In this document: positions 3 through 37,367 of the stretch, one piece after another | How the letters are laid out: every line of letters starts with the position of its first letter | Position numbering within the stretch: position 1 is the stretch's first letter | Assembly (NCBI GenBank): GCA_009789175.1 | Contig: CP046866.1 | Location: 2,728,001 to 2,792,000, forward strand | Direction of reading: 5' to 3' | DNA length: 64,000 bases | From: Salinibaculum litoreum | GTDB lineage: Archaea; Halobacteriota; Halobacteria; Halobacteriales; Haloarculaceae | Made by a program: the position numbers and the translations under genes | The notes under the pieces: generated by a model | Databases searched by the model: none | Told to the model about the DNA's origin: nothing | Seen by the model: only the letters and a program-made list of their open reading frames with translations

Positions 3-1847
3 ACCCGGGACCTCGTCGATACCGAACAGGAGATGGCCGACCTCGAAGCGAAGCAACGGGACCTGCTGGACCGGAGCCAGGAGGGCGACAGCGGTGCCAC
101 GGAGGCACGAGGTGCCGTCATGGACGAACTCGACGCGCTCGAAGACGACCTCGCCGACTTCGAGGAGAAGGCCGTCTGTGACCACTATTATCGCAATCTC
201 ACCACGAATACGGACGAGTTCTTTTCCTGGCTGTACGAGGACGTGCGCACGCCTGATGACATCTACGAGCGCGCCCACCGCGAGGGGTTGTGTGGCTACG
301 AACTCCTCAAAGAGGGTATCGAGAACGTCGATTTGGTGGTCTGTAACTACCACCACCTGCTCGACCCGATGATACGCGAGCAGTTCTTCCGGTGGCTCGG
401 CCGTGACCCCGAGGATGTCATCGCCGTCTTCGACGAGGCTCACAACGTCGAGAACGCCGCCCGCGACCACGCCCGGCGCACGCTCACCGAGACGACCCTC
501 GAAAGCGCACTCGACGAACTGCAAGAATCCGACGACGCCCGCGCCGACGCCGCCTACAACGTCCTCGGTACCTTCCTCGACGCCCTGCGGACAGCCTACG
601 ACGACGCCTTCGCCTTCGGCGAGCGCGAACAGGTCGGCGAGAACTGGCACGACCTCTCGATTGCCAACGAGGGGCGCCGGGACGACCTCACGCTGACGTT
701 CTTGCAGGAGTACACCGGCCCCGGGTTCTCGGCGGAACTGGACCATGCCATCGAACTCGGGAAGGACCTCGACGCCGAGTACGACGAGGCTTACAAATCC
801 GGCGAGGCGAGCGTCCGCAAGGAATGTCAGACCTTGCAGGCGGCCACGTTCGTCCAGGCGTGGCTCTCGGAGGGCGACGCGATGGGCACGTACCCCGTCA
901 TCAGTACGCGTCGTGACGACGAGGGCAACGGCGAAGTCTACGGCCGTGCGGAACTGTACACCTGTATCCCCGAGGAAGTGACGCGTGACCTCTTTGCGGA
1001 GCTACACGCGAGTGTCCTGATGAGTGCCACCCTGCGGCCGTTTTCGGTCACAGAGGACGTGCTCGGCCTGTCCGACACCGAGCGGATGGCCTACGGGGCA
1101 CAGTTCCCCGCGGACCGTCGCCGGACCTATACCGTCGACGGCCCCCCGCTTTTCGCCAGCAAGCGCGACGACCGCCAGGTCCAGCAGACCATCACCGACA
1201 CTATCGAGGACGCCGCCCGCTTCACGCCGGGGAACACGCTCGTCTTCTTCCCGTCCTACGGGGAAGCCAAACGCTATCACGACCGCGTCTCGGCAGGCAC
1301 TACCTACCTCGACGAACCCGGGACGGCCGCCCACGAACTGCGCGACCAGTTCATCGACGACGACGACGCCGTCCTCTTTACGTCGCTGTGGGGGACACTC
1401 GGTGAGGGAGTCAGTTTCGACGGCGACGACGCCCGAACCGTCGTCGTGGTCGGCGTTCCCTACCCGCATCTCGACGACCGGATGGAGGCCGTCCAGGCCG
1501 CCTACAACGAGGCCTTCGACGTGGACGACGCCGAGGACGTGGGTGCGACTGTCGCCGACGAGGACGCCGGCTGGCACTACGCCGTCGAGATACCCACCAT
1601 CCGCAAGACCCGGCAGGCGATGGGCCGGGTCGTCCGCTCGCCCGATGACTACGGTGCGCGCATCCTGCTCGATGCCCGCTACACCGAGCGCGCGGAAATC
1701 GAGATGGGCGAGTACGCCGTTCGTGGTGCCTTCCCCGCCGAGGAACGCGCCGAGATGATAGACGTAGAGCCCGAGAAACTCAAGTTCGGCCTGCTCAACT
1801 TCTATCAGGATGTGGATGGATACGATGGGGACCCGCCAACGCCGTAG
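3..1847 (+). CDS. XPD/Rad3-like ATP-dependent DNA helicase (5' end outside window)
   Basis: Superfamily 2 DEAD2-type helicase. The frame stays open to the left edge (first whole codon at base 3), so the N-terminus with Walker A is missing and the ATG at 33 is not the start. Visible parts: a Cys-containing segment (CDHYYRN, then GLCGYE and VCNYHH) resembling the Fe-S cluster region of XPD, the Walker B/DEAH box at 432-443 in AVFDEAHNVE, a SATLRPF motif III, and C-terminal motifs GTLGEGVSFDG and QAMGRVVRSPDD. The family unwinds 5' to 3' in repair or chromosome maintenance. The last 42 bp recur at 1981-2022 behind a structured element (see findings). Confidence 0.93.
   Translation, partial: TRDLVDTEQEMADLEAKQRDLLDRSQEGDSGATEARGAVMDELDALEDDLADFEEKAVCDHYYRNLTTNTDEFFSWLYEDVRTPDDIYERAHREGLCGYELLKEGIENVDLVVCNYHHLLDPMIREQFFRWLGRDPEDVIAVFDEAHNVENAARDHARRTLTETTLESALDELQESDDARADAAYNVLGTFLDALRTAYDDAFAFGEREQVGENWHDLSIANEGRRDDLTLTFLQEYTGPGFSAELDHAIELGKDLDAEYDEAYKSGEASVRKECQTLQAATFVQAWLSEGDAMGTYPVISTRRDDEGNGEVYGRAELYTCIPEEVTRDLFAELHASVLMSATLRPFSVTEDVLGLSDTERMAYGAQFPADRRRTYTVDGPPLFASKRDDRQVQQTITDTIEDAARFTPGNTLVFFPSYGEAKRYHDRVSAGTTYLDEPGTAAHELRDQFIDDDDAVLFTSLWGTLGEGVSFDGDDARTVVVVGVPYPHLDDRMEAVQAAYNEAFDVDDAEDVGATVADEDAGWHYAVEIPTIRKTRQAMGRVVRSPDDYGARILLDARYTERAEIEMGEYAVRGAFPAEERAEMIDVEPEKLKFGLLNFYQDVDGYDGDPPTP
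1804..1845 (+). repeat. Gene-tail repeat, copy inside the helicase gene
   Basis: The last codons of the helicase gene are 40/42 identical to 1981-2022. The gene copy runs into a TAG stop, the downstream copy into TGA at the same codon position. The two copies are 177 bp apart, a multiple of three. Confidence 0.95.
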
Positions 1848-1980
1848 TTGTAGCCGTGAGTGGGGTGAGCAGTTTACTGACCCGAGGCCGGTGGCCGAGG
1901 GTCAGCCTTTTTCGCCCACGTTTTTCGAGGAGCGGTATGCGACCATCGGGAGCATACCCGACGATGAAAAAGGTGGTCTC
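1846..1980 (+). repeat. Structured post-stop element, copy 1
   Basis: A 135-bp insert between two copies of the helicase gene tail. It holds a strong hairpin (1877-1905) followed by T5, a GCCCA-N2-TTTTT segment, a second hairpin (1934-1940 pairing with 1952-1958) and an AAAAAGGTGGTC end. The core 1906-1978 aligns with 3730-3801 (minus strand) behind tiaS. The two copies keep the second hairpin through paired base changes. CCTTTTT (1906) and AAAAAGG form inverted ends. Function unknown; it may be an RNA element, a miniature mobile element or both. Confidence 0.8.
1877..1912 (+). terminator. Hairpin plus T5 behind the helicase gene
   Basis: CTGACCC (1877-1883) pairs with GGGTCAG (1899-1905), with an inner GGCC/GGCC pairing and a three-base loop. 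TTTTT follows at 1908-1912. The shape is that of an intrinsic terminator about 30 nt after the stop codon. Confidence 0.7.
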
Positions 1981-2022
1981 ATCAGGATGTGGATGGATAT
2001 GATGGGGACCCGCCGACGCCGT
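1981..2022 (+). repeat. Gene-tail repeat, downstream copy of the helicase 3' end
   Basis: Second copy of the helicase tail (40/42 identical to 1804-1845), with an in-register TGA stop at 2022-2024. There is no start codon or gene body upstream of it, so it is a relic or a target duplication. From 2025 to 2130 I see no gene. Confidence 0.93.
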
Positions 2023-2130
2023 GATGGGCGGCCGCGAGGCGTCGGCTAGCGTGCATGTCCACCAGCGGTGTGTGAAGCCGTCGTTTGTCTTACCGAGAAC
2101 GTTATCCACGCCTGAGCACAACCGTCTCAC

Positions 2131-2364
2131 ATGGTCGGCATCGAGATCTCTGGGATGTTGGCTGTCGTCATCGGCCTCCTCGGTGGTGGGTGGATATACC
2201 TTGACGGCCGACAGCGGAACATGGACACCGCCGATATGTGGGCCGTTGGCTTTTTCCTCGGCATGTTCATCCCGCCGATTATCGGGGCGGTCGTCGTCGG
2301 CACGCTCTATCTCCAGCGACGGAACCGAAACCGGGGTCAGCCCGCTCCGGTCGACCGACTGTAG
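2131..2364 (+). CDS. Small two-helix membrane protein
   Basis: 77 aa with two hydrophobic helices (about residues 5-24 and 36-62) separated by a short polar loop (LDGRQRNMDTAD), then a basic tail. The second helix has the IPPIIGAVVVG pattern seen in many small haloarchaeal membrane proteins. It stands alone between the helicase element and the VOC gene. I do not recognise a function. Confidence 0.7.
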   Translation: MVGIEISGMLAVVIGLLGGGWIYLDGRQRNMDTADMWAVGFFLGMFIPPIIGAVVVGTLYLQRRNRNRGQPAPVDRL

Positions 2365-2481
2365 CACACTCTCGACGCACCCCCTTTCTCGGCATAACAC
2401 GACGGACAGCAGCGAGTCGTCTCGTCGTTCTCTGTCTCCGGCAACCGTCACCGTTTTCGCGCCAGCGGCCACCTCTCCTGT

Positions 2482-2895
2482 ATGCCAACTGCCCACCACG
2501 TCGGTATCACCGTCACCGACTTAGAGCGTGCCGTCGAGTTCTACACCGAGGTGTTCGACCTCTCCGTCGTCGCCGACTTTTCCGTCGGCGGCGAGGCCTT
2601 CGAGATCGGCGTCGACGTACCCGACGCGACGGGTAACTTCGCCCATCTCGATGCCGACGGGATTCGCGTCGAGCTCGTCGAGTACGACCCCCAAGGCGAC
2701 CCCGCTCACGCCGACCGGGTACACCAGCCCGGTGCGAAACACCTCGGGCTGGCAGTCGAGAACCTCGACGACTTCTACCGGGCCTTGCCCGAGCAAGTCG
2801 AGACGCTTTCGGAACCACAGACCACTGAAAGCGGCACGCGAATCTGCTTTGTCAGGGACCCCGAGGGGAACCTCATCGAGGTGCTGGAGACCTGA
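2482..2895 (+). CDS. VOC-family (glyoxalase/bleomycin-resistance type) protein
   Basis: 137 aa single VOC module with two beta-alpha-beta-beta-beta halves. The first starts at HHVGITVTDLERAVEFYTE and the second at KHLGLAVENLDDFYRAL, ending in DPEGNLIEVLE. The metal-site pattern of the family is visible: H in HVGITV, E in ELVEYD, H in KHLGLAV and E in LIEVLE. Members include glyoxalase I, dioxygenases and antibiotic-binding proteins, so the substrate cannot be assigned. It is likely a cytoplasmic homodimer. The start ATG is followed at once by the first conserved strand. Confidence 0.88.
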   Translation: MPTAHHVGITVTDLERAVEFYTEVFDLSVVADFSVGGEAFEIGVDVPDATGNFAHLDADGIRVELVEYDPQGDPAHADRVHQPGAKHLGLAVENLDDFYRALPEQVETLSEPQTTESGTRICFVRDPEGNLIEVLET

Positions 2896-2916
2896 CCTCC
2901 GGCGTAGCCAGGAAAT

Positions 2917-3561
2917 TTAGTTGCGCTTGTTGTGACCACGCTTGCGTTTTTTGCGGCCTGGCCCGCCGTCTTTGCCGCGGTTGTGCTTTCTCTGACCCCG
3001 GTTGTCATCCTTTTCCCGTCCCCGTTTTCTACGGCCCGGGTGGTCATCTCTCCCTCGGCCTCGCGTTCCACGGCCCGGATTGTCGTCGTTGCCCCCACCC
3101 GTTCCGGTGACATCACACTCGCCCGGTTCGATGTTGCCGCTACAACAGCCCGAGTCGTTCAGGGCCGCGATAATCTCGTCTACGGAGTCGTAGTAGTTCG
3201 ATGCGCAGTTGTTAGGGTTCAGGCAGAACGTCTCGCTTGCACACCCCTCGATCATCCCGACGATTGCTTCCGCGCCCGATACCTCGTAGCACGACGACGA
3301 CCACTTCCAGTCCTGATTTTGGCGGTCCGAGGTGTACTCTCCCATCGGTCGGCACTCGTAGCCACCGTCAACTGCGACGACGGCTCTGCCGTCCTGACTG
3401 CCCGAGCAGACCTGGCTACAGCCGTAAAACTGGATTTGCCACGCGCTGGCGGTCCCGGTCATCGCCGTCAGCCCGACTGCGCCGCCACCGACTGTCTTCA
3501 GCACGTCTCGCCGGCTGACGGAGATTGCGTTACTACCCTGGGTTCCAGTCACTCGCTCCAT
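2917..3561 (-). CDS. Tat-exported Cys-rich protein with a basic Gly/Arg/Lys tail
   Basis: 214 aa from the ATG at 3561. An upstream in-frame ATG at 3651 would add 30 residues before the signal peptide and is less likely. The twin-arginine signal is SRRDVLKTVGGG, with a likely cleavage after ASA. The mature part (about 110 residues) has ten cysteines and is Trp/Tyr-rich. From about residue 160 it becomes a highly basic low-complexity tail of repeated PGR, RGR and RKR units, using AAA/AGA codons. That is very unusual in an acidic haloarchaeal proteome. I do not recognise a family. A secreted disulfide-rich peptide precursor is possible but unproven. Confidence 0.8.
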   Translation of the reverse strand: MERVTGTQGSNAISVSRRDVLKTVGGGAVGLTAMTGTASAWQIQFYGCSQVCSGSQDGRAVVAVDGGYECRPMGEYTSDRQNQDWKWSSSCYEVSGAEAIVGMIEGCASETFCLNPNNCASNYYDSVDEIIAALNDSGCCSGNIEPGECDVTGTGGGNDDNPGRGTRGRGRDDHPGRRKRGREKDDNRGQRKHNRGKDGGPGRKKRKRGHNKRN

Positions 3562-3677
3562 ACCCACGGGTCGGGTATTGCGTACTTCGTTATGCGTCGC
3601 AATCCGGTGGACTATTTTCGACCATGTCGTGTGTCTGCCGTGGTAGTACACGATTACCGGGCCGACGTGCCCCAGCT

Positions 3678-3723
3678 ATCGCTCCGGATGGACGGGAGCA
3701 TCGAAGCCACCTCTCACCAGTGG
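3678..3723 (-). repeat. Gene-tail repeat, distal copy of the tiaS 3' end
   Basis: 46/46 identical to 3838-3883, the last codons of tiaS. On the minus strand it reads the same tail and ends in TAG, where the gene itself ends in TGA. The surrounding non-coding stretch 3562-3837 holds this copy and the structured element, and nothing else that I recognise. Confidence 0.95.
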
Positions 3724-3837
3724 TTCAGCGACCACCTTTTTCCCGGTCGGGTGCGCTCTGTCGTCGCGCACCGCTCCCGGCAAAAATCTGGCCCAAAAAG
3801 GCCGAGTGCTCACTCCGTTCGCACTCGGGATGTACTC
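3724..3837 (-). repeat. Structured post-stop element, copy 2
   Basis: A 114-bp insert between the two tiaS tail copies. On the minus strand it has a hairpin (3821-3828 with 3802-3809), T5, GGGCCA, a second T5, a second hairpin (3766-3772 with 3750-3756) and GAAAAAGGTGGTC. The order and spacing match the element behind the helicase gene, with core 3730-3801 against 1906-1978. See findings for the compensatory changes. Confidence 0.8.
3795..3828 (-). terminator. Hairpin plus T5 behind tiaS
   Basis: On the minus strand CCGAGTGC (3828-3821) pairs with GCACTCGG (3809-3802), and T5 follows (3799-3795). It is the counterpart of the hairpin at 1877-1912 with a different sequence. Confidence 0.65.
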
Positions 3838-5101
3838 ATCGCTCCGGATGGACGGGAGCATCGAAGCCACCTCTCACCAGTGGCTTCGCGATGTGTCGGC
3901 GTGCCACTGGGGGAACCTCGTACCACCCCTTCTCGATGTCCCGCTCGATGGGCTGCTCGACTTTCCCGTCGGCGCTCGTCGAACAGTCCCGACAGCGATA
4001 GCCGGCGTCTGCCCCCGCCGACTCCATCGAGCGCCCGCAGTCGGGACACTCGGGGACGACCCGTTCCGTCTCGACACGCTCCCGGAGCGCGAACTTCTCC
4101 AGTTTCAGCGTCCCGTCGCTCACTTCGCCACAGGCGGTGATGCGGTCGCCCGGCCACAGCGCCCGCACCCGGTTCCGGAAGCGTTTGGTCGGCTCGAAGG
4201 CAACACATTGGACCGACCTATCCCCCCCATCGAGGGTGAGAAAGACGTGGCCCCCTTCCCGCGTTTCGGGTGCGCTGGCGACAGTCCCGGTCGTCCGGTA
4301 AGCGCGACCGGCCTGCAGGTCGGCCACCGGTGCTGTGTGGAGATGAGCGTCGGTCCCTTGATTCGTGAGGAAGACCTGTCGGGTGGCGACTGGCTCGCTC
4401 TCGATGGCCTCGGCGACCCGGCGAACGGCGTCGGCGTCGTCGCCGCGGATGCCATGCAGGATGGGACACGGTGTCCGGGGAACACAGACCGCCGTGCCCT
4501 CCTCGCGGTCGATGGTGTCCCACACCGCCGGGTACTCCTCGTCTGCCGCTGTGTGAACGGAGTCGACGTCGACCTCGCGGACGGTCCCCCAGCGGTCGCG
4601 CTCCCGGTAGGAGATGCACTCGTAGGTCCACTCGTCGAAGGCGGCCCACGCTCCGGTCGCGGCCGTCGCGCCGACCAGTCCCCGGCCGTTCCCGCGCTCG
4701 ACGGTGTGTGCGTCGCTGTCGGTGAGAGCGGCACGTACCTCGTCAGGGTCGACGTACTCCCGGACTGCCCGGCGGGCGACGGCCGCGAACGCAGAGGGCA
4801 CCGTTTCGGGTGCAGCGCCGACGACGACCGCGCCAGGATTCGTCCGAGGGTCGTCCGTTTCGGCGCGGTCGAGTGCGTTCTCCGCGAGTCCCAGCGCCTC
4901 GCCGGCCAGCAGGTCACAGTGGACGGCCAGCGCGGCGTTACCCCGTGTCTTGTGCTCGACGGCGGGATTGAGGCGAACGAGCAGCGCCCGGTCGACGGTC
5001 CCGCCCGCCTGGCGTACTGCCTGCACGAGGCGCGTCGCGACGTAGGTCGTACACATCCCTCGCTCGCGGGAGTCGGTGTCGTCGACGGCGATGACTGTCA
5101 C
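3836..5101 (-). CDS. tiaS: tRNA(Ile2) 2-agmatinylcytidine synthetase TiaS
   Basis: 421 aa from the GTG at 5101, which places VTVIAVDDTDSRERG at the N-terminus as usual for the family; the longer frame to 5215 would run into the divergent promoter. TiaS attaches agmatine to C34 of tRNA-Ile so that it reads AUA. Visible: the N-terminal DDTDS catalytic motif, a central domain, an OB-fold (about residues 270-340, RAYRTTGTVASAPE onward) and a C-terminal zinc ribbon (CPDCGRSM, then CRDC). The last 46 bp are repeated at 3678-3723. Confidence 0.92.
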   Translation of the reverse strand: MTVIAVDDTDSRERGMCTTYVATRLVQAVRQAGGTVDRALLVRLNPAVEHKTRGNAALAVHCDLLAGEALGLAENALDRAETDDPRTNPGAVVVGAAPETVPSAFAAVARRAVREYVDPDEVRAALTDSDAHTVERGNGRGLVGATAATGAWAAFDEWTYECISYRERDRWGTVREVDVDSVHTAADEEYPAVWDTIDREEGTAVCVPRTPCPILHGIRGDDADAVRRVAEAIESEPVATRQVFLTNQGTDAHLHTAPVADLQAGRAYRTTGTVASAPETREGGHVFLTLDGGDRSVQCVAFEPTKRFRNRVRALWPGDRITACGEVSDGTLKLEKFALRERVETERVVPECPDCGRSMESAGADAGYRCRDCSTSADGKVEQPIERDIEKGWYEVPPVARRHIAKPLVRGGFDAPVHPER

Positions 5102-34679: not shown

Positions 34680-37367
34680 TCAGTCCGTCATTGCGGCGGT
34701 GAGCCGCTGGCGGAAATCGTAGGGCTGTGGTCGCTCGCTTGGGGTCGTCGCCATCGCGTCGCCGATGGCGCTGTCCACTCCGTCCGGCAGTGATGGGTCC
34801 CTGACGGTCGGTGGTGTCAGGTCGCCGTTGACGATGGCACTGCGTGGGTCGTCGGCATCGATGAACGGCGGGTGTCCGGTCAGGACTCGGTAGGCGACGG
34901 CCCCGAGCTGGTAGGTGTCGGTTTCAGCCCCGGCGCTGTCGCCGGTCAGTTGTTCCGGTGCCGTGTACGGCGTAATCCAGTCGGCCCCCACCACCTGCGC
35001 GACGGCTTGCCGGACGCCCCAGCCTGCCAGTGTCACGACGGGGTTGGCCGACAGGTCCTCGCCGATGAACGCCACCGACGGGGAGATGCTCCCGTGGACG
35101 AGGTTGTACATGCCGGCGGTACGGACTGCCTCCGCGAGGTGTGCAATCGCATCGACGCGAGCGTCCCGCTCTAACGACGAGAGGATATCGTTCAGCTGTC
35201 CGGTTCCGGGGTCGAACGCCACCCAGGGGCGGGGCTCGTCGCCGCTGTCGTAGACGGTCGCGACGTGGGTGTTCTTGCTGATGCCCTCCCACTCACGGGC
35301 CGCCGTCCCGAACGCCTCGACGGCGTCGGCTGTCCCGGTGTGGTCGGGTGCCAGCGCGTAGATGCAGGTCTGTTTGCTGTCGTCACCGTCTGGGTATCGC
35401 CCGCTGTAGACGTGGACCGGTCCCGCCGTGTCGACGGGACGGAGCCGCTCGACTCGGTCACACTTCTGCAGGAACGCTCCGGCCGGCGATTTCGGCGACG
35501 GCGGCTCGTACTCGGCTGTCGATTCGGTTGCCGGGCTTTCGGCGACCGTCTCGGACGCTTCCGGCCTGTCGACGGGTTCCGCTTCGCCGCCGGACTGGCT
35601 GCCCCCGTCGTCTACAGACCCGTCGCCGGCACTGTCGGACGAGTCAGGGGAGTCCGCAGTCGACTCGCCGGTCCCGTCGTCTTCGTCGTCGTGCTCGTTT
35701 CTGACGTGTTTCCAGACAGCCAGCGCGGCGATGGTCGAACTCACGGCGACTACGCCACCCAGCACTGTCGTGTTCGGCGAGTCCGCCGTGCTTGTCTCGC
35801 GGGCTGTGGTGGCCGCTGTCTCCGGGAACCGTGTCGTGGCTTGTTCTGTTGTGTGATCGACAACCGTCGGCGTCACGGTGGGTGTGGAGACGGGCGTCGT
35901 CACGGTGGGTGTGGAGACGGGCGTCGTCACTGCGGCCACCGCAACTGTCTGCGTTGCCGTGTACCGTGTCCCGTCGGTCGACACGCGCAACTGCACGGTG
36001 TACTCCCCTTGCTCGGCGAAGCTGTGAGTCACCCGCTGGCCGGTGGCCGTGAAGGCGGCGTCGGTCCCGAACGACCACTCGTAGGTGGCGTTCTCGGCAG
36101 TCTGTACCGACCCCTCGAACGTGACCGTCTCCCCCACGAGGGCTCCGTCGGGCCCTTCGATTTCTGGGGTGAGAGTCCCTTCGGTCAGTGCGTACACGGA
36201 CCCGTCGTTGCTCCCGACGTAGACGGTGCCGTCCACCACGGCAGGTGACGACGCCACACTGTCGCCAGTCTGGAAGCGCCACTGCTCGGCCCCGTCCGCT
36301 GTCGAGAGGGCGTACACGTTCCCGTCGTAGCTCCCGACGTAGACAGTGCCGTCGACCACGACCGGGGACGAGACCACAGCACCGTCGGTCTGGAAGCGCC
36401 ACTGTTCGGCCCCGTCCGCTGTCGAGAGGGCATAGAGGCGTCCCCTGCTACTCCCGACGTAGACCGTGTCGCCAACGACCGCTGGAGACGAGGCCACACG
36501 CCCGAGAGTCTAGACGCGCCACCGTTCGGTTCCATCCGCTGCCGATACTGCGTACACGATGCCCGCGTCGAGTGAATTGTCGCCGACGTAGACGGTACCG
36601 TCGACGACTGCCGGCGATGAGGCGATACCGGACTCGGCCCGAAACCGCCACTGTTCGGTGCCGTCTGTCGCCGAGAGCGCGTAGACGTTTGTGTCGAAAC
36701 TCCCGACGTAGACTGTTCCGTTGACCACTGCCGGTGACGTGGTTACGCCCGACATGGGTCGGGTCTGGAACCGCCACCGTTCGGTGCCGTCTGCCGCCGA
36801 AAGCGCGTAGACGGACCTGTCACCACCCCCGACGTAGACGGTGCCGCCGACGACTGCCGGCGGTGATGTCACGAACTCACTGGTTTGAGTGTCCCACTGC
36901 ACCGTGCCGTCGCCAGCGTCCAGTGCGAACACGGCCCCGCCCTGGCTTCCGACGGTACCACTCCCGACGTAGACAGTACCGCCGACGACTGCGGGTGATG
37001 ACACCACTCCAGCGTCGGTCTGAACGCGCCACCGCTCGGTGCCATCCGTCGCCGAGAGGGCGTATACGTTCCCGTCGTAACTCCCGACGTAGACGGTGTC
37101 GCCGATGACTGCCGGCGACGAGGCAACTTCTCCCTCGGTCCGGTAGCGCCACTCTCGGGAGATGGGTGCGTCCGGCCCGGTTTCGTCGGGGTTGTACCCG
37201 GTGTTCGCCACGTTGACGCAGTACATCGGGTGCCCGGCGGCATCGACCTGAGGCTGGTGCCATTGTCGAACCCGGCCACGACTCTCACTCGAACTGATGA
37301 GGCCCAGACCACTCAGTAGTCCACCCTGCCGGAGAAATTCCCGACGCGAGAACGTCTCGATGGGCAT
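34680..37367 (-). pseudogene. Tat-exported PQQ-propeller / PKD / TM / pseudokinase protein with an in-frame amber
   Basis: 895 codons in one frame from the ATG at 37367, interrupted by TAG at 36510-36512. Order: Tat signal (FSRREFLRQGG), about nine PQQ-type propeller repeats (each near SSPAVVGDTVYVGSYDGNVY), a PKD domain (about residues 420-490), a Thr-rich linker, one membrane helix (VLGGVVAVSSTIAALAVWKHV), then a cytoplasmic kinase-like domain. The amber stands where other repeats have Gln (WRVQT or WRFQT). In the kinase part HRD is replaced by HGS, DFG by GWG, while TAPEQ remains, so it is probably a pseudokinase. It links an external sensor to a cytoplasmic scaffold. Confidence 0.88.

Follow-up and report, generated by a model that had tools for sequence, protein, structure and literature searches.

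In the window, by which we mean the whole 64 kb stretch of DNA that was analysed, a helicase gene and a tiaS gene each end in the same arrangement: the gene tail with its stop codon, an insert (135 bp behind the helicase gene and 114 bp behind tiaS), and a second copy of the tail (Table 1). The preliminary description of this DNA had reported this arrangement, and we recovered it with the same insert lengths and tail identities. The second stop codons are in register at both loci, with the refinement that the stop type changes from one copy to the other (TAG to TGA at the helicase gene, TGA to TAG at tiaS). The two inserts could be aligned with each other, as had been claimed, at a score of 78 compared with 21.6 +/- 3.9 for shuffled sequences. 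In both of them a gene-specific hairpin and CCTTTTT stand 5' of a conserved hairpin, and the conserved core proposed earlier, which is common to both inserts, was redrawn as an element, here called E, with the limits given in Table 1. A covariance model of the family found exactly two strong copies of E in the 64 kb window, those behind the helicase gene and tiaS. Exact repeats of at least 16 bp at a spacing of 21-400 bp occur at few other places in the window. Other short direct repeats lie at 35871-35903 (33 bp, spacing 27) and at 36268-36311 (17-26 bp, spacing 120), and the E model had zero matches at either. The gene names used here (helicase, tiaS, gyrA, hisF and pheT) are those that we presume from reading the translations. 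Labels beginning with G stand for genomes (G000 is that of the window), with g for genera and with L for loci.

Table 1. Features of the two tail-E-tail loci in the window
Feature	Position	Strand	Basis
Helicase first tail (XPD/Rad3-like gene)	1804..1847	+	stop TAG 1845-1847
hp1, helicase-specific hairpin CTGACCC...GGGTCAG, directly 5' of CCTTTTT	1877..1905	+	sequence; terminator-like scan match 1892-1904
E behind helicase: CCTTTTTC + hairpin 1916-1976 (CCAC-g-T5 ... A5-g-GTGG)	1906..1976	+	covariance model R1, 67.1 bits, E-value 8e-14; family covariation
Helicase second tail, 40/42 identical to first (1804-1845 against 1981-2022)	1981..2024	+	in-register stop TGA 2022-2024
tiaS first tail	3836..3891	-	stop TGA 3836-3838
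hp1 behind tiaS (CCGAGTGC...GCACTCGG)	3802..3828	-	sequence
E behind tiaS, hairpin 3732-3791	3732..3801	-	covariance model R1, 82.0 bits, E-value 2e-17
tiaS second tail, 46/46 in conserved part (3838-3883 against 3678-3723), extending to 54 bp at 94%	3676..3731	-	stop TAG 3676-3678

Comparison of about 80 copies from relatives gave E as CCTTTTTC followed by the hairpin CCAY-g-TTTTT-g-NNNN-GAG-y-GGT-(variable apical stem)-ACC-CGA-NNNN-g-AAAAA-g-RTGG, usually with a gene-specific hairpin 5' of it. In a 24-sequence alignment, 96.4% of the pair cells of the E hairpin were paired, compared with at most 56.7% when the partners were slid. Both sides had changed in 10 of 21 pairs, with 61 such cells against 17.3 after shuffling, and a compensatory change is visible where CCAC:GTGG becomes CCAT:ATGG. 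The copies of E form one family, that of a conserved hairpin which covaries and lies between T5 runs. With the calibrated covariance model, 56 of the 57 genomes sampled from the window's family had E (0-59 matches per genome; 41 in the window's own genome), and so had 98 of 116 genomes chosen from the whole class, in several families. When the E pattern was searched in the window's genome (3.7 Mb), 26 matches were obtained, 10 of which form one tandem array. No relevant Rfam covariance model matched window positions 1750-4000. The exact pattern was absent from the viral contigs, blastn against plasmids gave no match, and no description of a haloarchaeal family like E was found in the open-access papers searched. 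The family is undescribed, class-wide in haloarchaea and extragenic. A subfamily of E (CCTTTTTAGCGTAGATTTTT) lies within a dispersed repeat of about 190 bp (L012, L014, L016, L022 and L023, around 1408-1610), which is perhaps the end of a mobile element; its five own-genome copies are up to 97.8% identical over about 180-190 bp and show no tail duplication.

The copies of E follow stop codons, as had been supposed from the two loci in the window, and many of them lie between convergent genes. At 43 of 104 testable non-duplicated sites, the stop codon of a convergent gene lies 2-10 bp from the right end of E, while at duplicated sites the stop of the upstream gene mostly lies 25-67 bp 5' of E. 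In the family alignment each strand of E carries a T stretch, CCTTTTTC on the top strand and CCACCTTTTTC on the bottom strand, with T5C at the outer side of each, so that a T stretch stands behind a gene on each strand, as in an archaeal bidirectional terminator. In a reporter study in Haloferax, T5C terminates at 95% (PMC7237163). Since T5C is efficient in Haloferax, is present on both strands of E and has convergent stops adjoining it, we read the basic role of E, from its sequence, as most likely that of a bidirectional transcription terminator. E resembles the haloarchaeal T-stretch (T5C) and hairpin terminators of that study in carrying T5C on both strands, beside hairpins and behind stops; it differs in being a conserved, covarying family, whereas the accessible part of the paper gives sites and motifs and notes no family with gene-tail copies (PMC7237163).

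The search of haloarchaeal genomes proposed in the preliminary description yielded further copies with tail duplications in many haloarchaea, including other haloarchaeal families. A gene-tail duplication (flanking direct-repeat score of at least 45) was present at 49 of 166 distinct E sites (30%, which is not a genome-wide rate, the sites being loci picked by similarity to the first copies found). The expectation that the preceding tail is repeated 3' of E therefore held at these 49 sites and failed at the other 70%. The idea that copies might lie at random positions without tail duplications was contradicted by these duplications and by the non-random placement of the non-duplicated sites (43/104 adjoining a convergent stop). 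Among mismatched pairings of upstream and downstream flanks, 22 of 2471 reached the same score, and some such cases are to be expected, since a gene may be represented by several loci. The duplicated tails comprise the last 30-180 bases of the preceding gene. In 47 of the 49 duplications, the beginning of the second copy lies no more than 15 bp from the right end of E (GGTGG), which marks a sharp boundary. The junctions often contain one or two extra bases 3-5 nt past GGTGG; many read GGTGG, three or four bases that match the gene, an extra base (often C) and then the gene again (for example, window 1977-1981). When 2000 bp upstream were searched, the duplicated stretch began 51-280 bp 5' of E in 49 of 51 cases; its length varies, and so does its far end, which usually lies near the stop codon. 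A second E stands behind the second tail at 11 of 51 duplicated loci. Outside the window in the same genome, ten tandem 171-bp units of tail, hairpin and E stand behind one gene (L027, G000:C1:2703788-2705394); the final tail has differences at three positions and leads into other downstream DNA.

The two tails differ from each other as alleles do. Differences between first and second tails fell at codon positions 1, 2 and 3 in the ratio 20/16/114 (150 in total), where neutral decay of the second copy would give roughly 1:1:2 (chi-square about 41, our own calculation), and concerned 99 synonymous against 35 non-synonymous codons. An in-register stop was kept in 39 of 44 second tails, six of them with another stop type, and the similarity of the tails usually ends near the stop codon, as it does between orthologous gene ends. 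The two tails thus resemble allelic or orthologous gene ends.

The preliminary description had also proposed a comparison with genomes lacking the element at the same gene, and E-less relatives with one tail and the same downstream genes were found. In genus g14, the helicase tail of E-less genomes is followed by a downstream gene, and in G014 and G112 tail-E-tail stands before that same gene. The helicase junction of the window, GGTGG-TCTC-ATCAGG, is common to three genomes of another genus; in G032 (genus g14) the junction GGTGG-TCTC-AYCAGG, with the extra C, precedes a different gene, which is the gene found at this place in the E-less G102, and in the window's genome the shared junction precedes a third downstream gene. 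Likewise, at another gene in genus g2, the junction GGTGG-AGGAT or AGGGT occurs before three downstream contexts. Two g2 genomes have downstream DNA that is 98.9% identical, with E in one only; in the E-less member the first hairpin continues into the downstream DNA, which is the product that recombination between the repeats would leave. E1 and E2 of a two-unit locus in g2 are not simple fresh duplicates, because they belong to different subtypes. In genus g6, tail-E-tail is found in eight genomes, with one decayed version, and a single tail in at least four. Different junctions at one gene indicate independent origins at gyrA, at pheT, at the helicase gene in genus g6 and at tiaS in G085, a genome of another genus in which E is present and the second tail starts at a different point (L342), making this an independent event at tiaS.

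The tails also bear marks of recombination. In the eight g6 genomes with tail-E-tail, the two tails within a genome were separated by 5.1 differences in 57 bp, whereas opposite tails taken from different genomes were separated by 9.0 (permutation p 1e-4): the tails evolve in concert within genomes. At locus L304, the gene body of G126 is 98.5% identical to that of the E-bearing G006, with which it groups in the gene tree (support 96/98), while its downstream DNA is 93.2% identical to G129 and 84.3% to G006; E is absent at the switch point. G126 is a clean recombinant of two lineages in which the switch falls at the gene tail; it does not carry E, whose loss came about by recombination in the tail. 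The ten-unit array of 171 bp is counted as unequal exchange. Among the genomes compared, we found no near-identical pair in which one unit against two was the sole difference. As far as the accessible parts of the sources go, gene conversion between chromosome copies is efficient in the polyploid Haloferax (PMC8223754, PMC11276520).

These observations bear on how the second tail arose. In the preliminary description the insert was the conserved or mobile part and the tail its target; the insert is indeed conserved and dispersed, but the reading of the second tail as a target-site duplication is not supported. A transposase or integrase acting in trans, with the second tail as an unusually long target-site duplication, would agree with the dispersal of E, its arms resembling terminal inverted repeats, the directly flanking duplications, the relatives without E at the same gene, and the likeness of some own-genome copies (up to 97.8% over about 180-190 bp). 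We nevertheless consider it very unlikely: several tails end in different valid stop codons, divergence is concentrated at third positions (114 against 20 and 16), the duplicated stretch has a varying length and a variable end, most copies (70% of the 166 sites) have no duplication, one E-tail junction stands before unrelated downstream DNA, and neither viral contigs (exact pattern) nor plasmids gave a match. Recombination between the tails accounts for the relatives that lack E but have the same DNA downstream. Nor do the tails fit an IS or MITE, which would be bordered at both ends by identical direct repeats of one constant length: here length and left end vary, and the differences are ortholog-like. 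Target-site duplication by transposition was rejected because of the stops, the codon positions and the variable length. CRISPR-like integration and diversity-generating retroelements were rejected, as the repeat length is inconstant and the differences are not adenine-directed. So was reverse transcription of mRNA ends, as the tails are allelic and most transcripts in Haloferax stop at T5C, which would leave the end of the RNA 5' of the hairpin.

Replication slippage alone, in which tail and terminator were tandemly duplicated and the second terminator was then lost with no transfer between genomes, has in its favour the second E at 11 of 51 duplicated loci, the ten-unit array and the short, bounded duplicated lengths. 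It seems unlikely to be the whole account, since identical junctions with an extra base recur in two genera and with unrelated DNA downstream, the tails differ as orthologs do, G126 is a recombinant, and helicase loci with the same junction had already been seen not to share downstream DNA or not to follow the species tree. Another account would have each case made directly from foreign DNA ending at E, by one-sided homology and an illegitimate joint. Such homology-facilitated illegitimate recombination is described in bacteria and likewise has one homologous and one non-homologous joint (PMC3240628); the seamless left join, the non-homologous right join at E and the allelic tails speak for it. 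Here, however, the non-homologous joint keeps to the base of one hairpin, and the same joint recurs in several contexts, which means that fewer right-hand joints were formed than loci exist. A joint that is always at E, together with a stretch of only 51-280 bp upstream, also calls for the hairpin in any case. We therefore hold it to be improbable as a direct origin of each case.

We think it probable that E is a bidirectional terminator, that units of tail, hairpin and E duplicate at its right base, and that these units spread, become alike, multiply or are lost through homologous recombination in the tails. The right base of E (GGTGG) would be the start of the new unit in a short tandem duplication of the preceding gene tail, hairpin 1 and E. 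Probably DNA synthesis comes off at this base once the hairpin has formed in the nascent strand, and it re-primes 50-280 bp upstream. With the second tail to its right, E would have on either side an arm homologous to the end of the same gene. Exchanges within the gene to one side and within the tail to the other could then bring E into an allele irrespective of the DNA that follows, and recombination between the tails could give clean deletion of E or expansion, as well as homogenisation of the tails. Most duplicated loci have no second E, which requires us to assume one more recombination, with an allele that lacks E. At the helicase gene and tiaS of the window, we infer that the first tail came with E and that the second is the gene end still joined to its native downstream DNA. 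More tentatively, the hairpin with its duplicated tail could be a cassette bearing its own two homology arms, non-coding and free of a transposase, which spreads between species behind the same gene by homologous recombination alone; we regard this as possible but somewhat doubtful.

REP and BIME sequences of bacteria are short conserved extragenic palindromes, present in tens of copies behind gene ends and in part in arrays. E consists of many-copy extragenic palindromes behind genes in the same way, short and conserved, with tens of copies and some of them arrayed, whereas it is haloarchaeal, has another sequence with T5/A5 arms, and shows tail duplication at one exact end. Integrative elements of the icd or phage 21 type restore the 3' end of a protein gene. 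E is like them in that an allelic gene end replaces the old one, which is left at the far side, and unlike them in that its unit measures only about 65-250 bp, has no integrase and concerns many unrelated target genes. The integrase gene and single specific target gene of an integrative element were thus not found: 65-250 bp leave no room for a gene, and the targets are many and unrelated.

E adds to haloarchaeal genomes an undescribed, class-wide conserved hairpin family, a candidate two-way terminator. The tail-E-tail units are a readable record of recombination at gene ends, marking where alleles of different lineages met. The tail duplication may allow transfer of the hairpin from genome to genome while the gene stays unharmed, and if the reading as a cassette is true, a tiny non-coding sequence spreads without an enzyme of its own. 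Gene-end fragments beside hairpins in haloarchaeal genomes should be taken as recombination scars, and not as pseudogenes or new genes.
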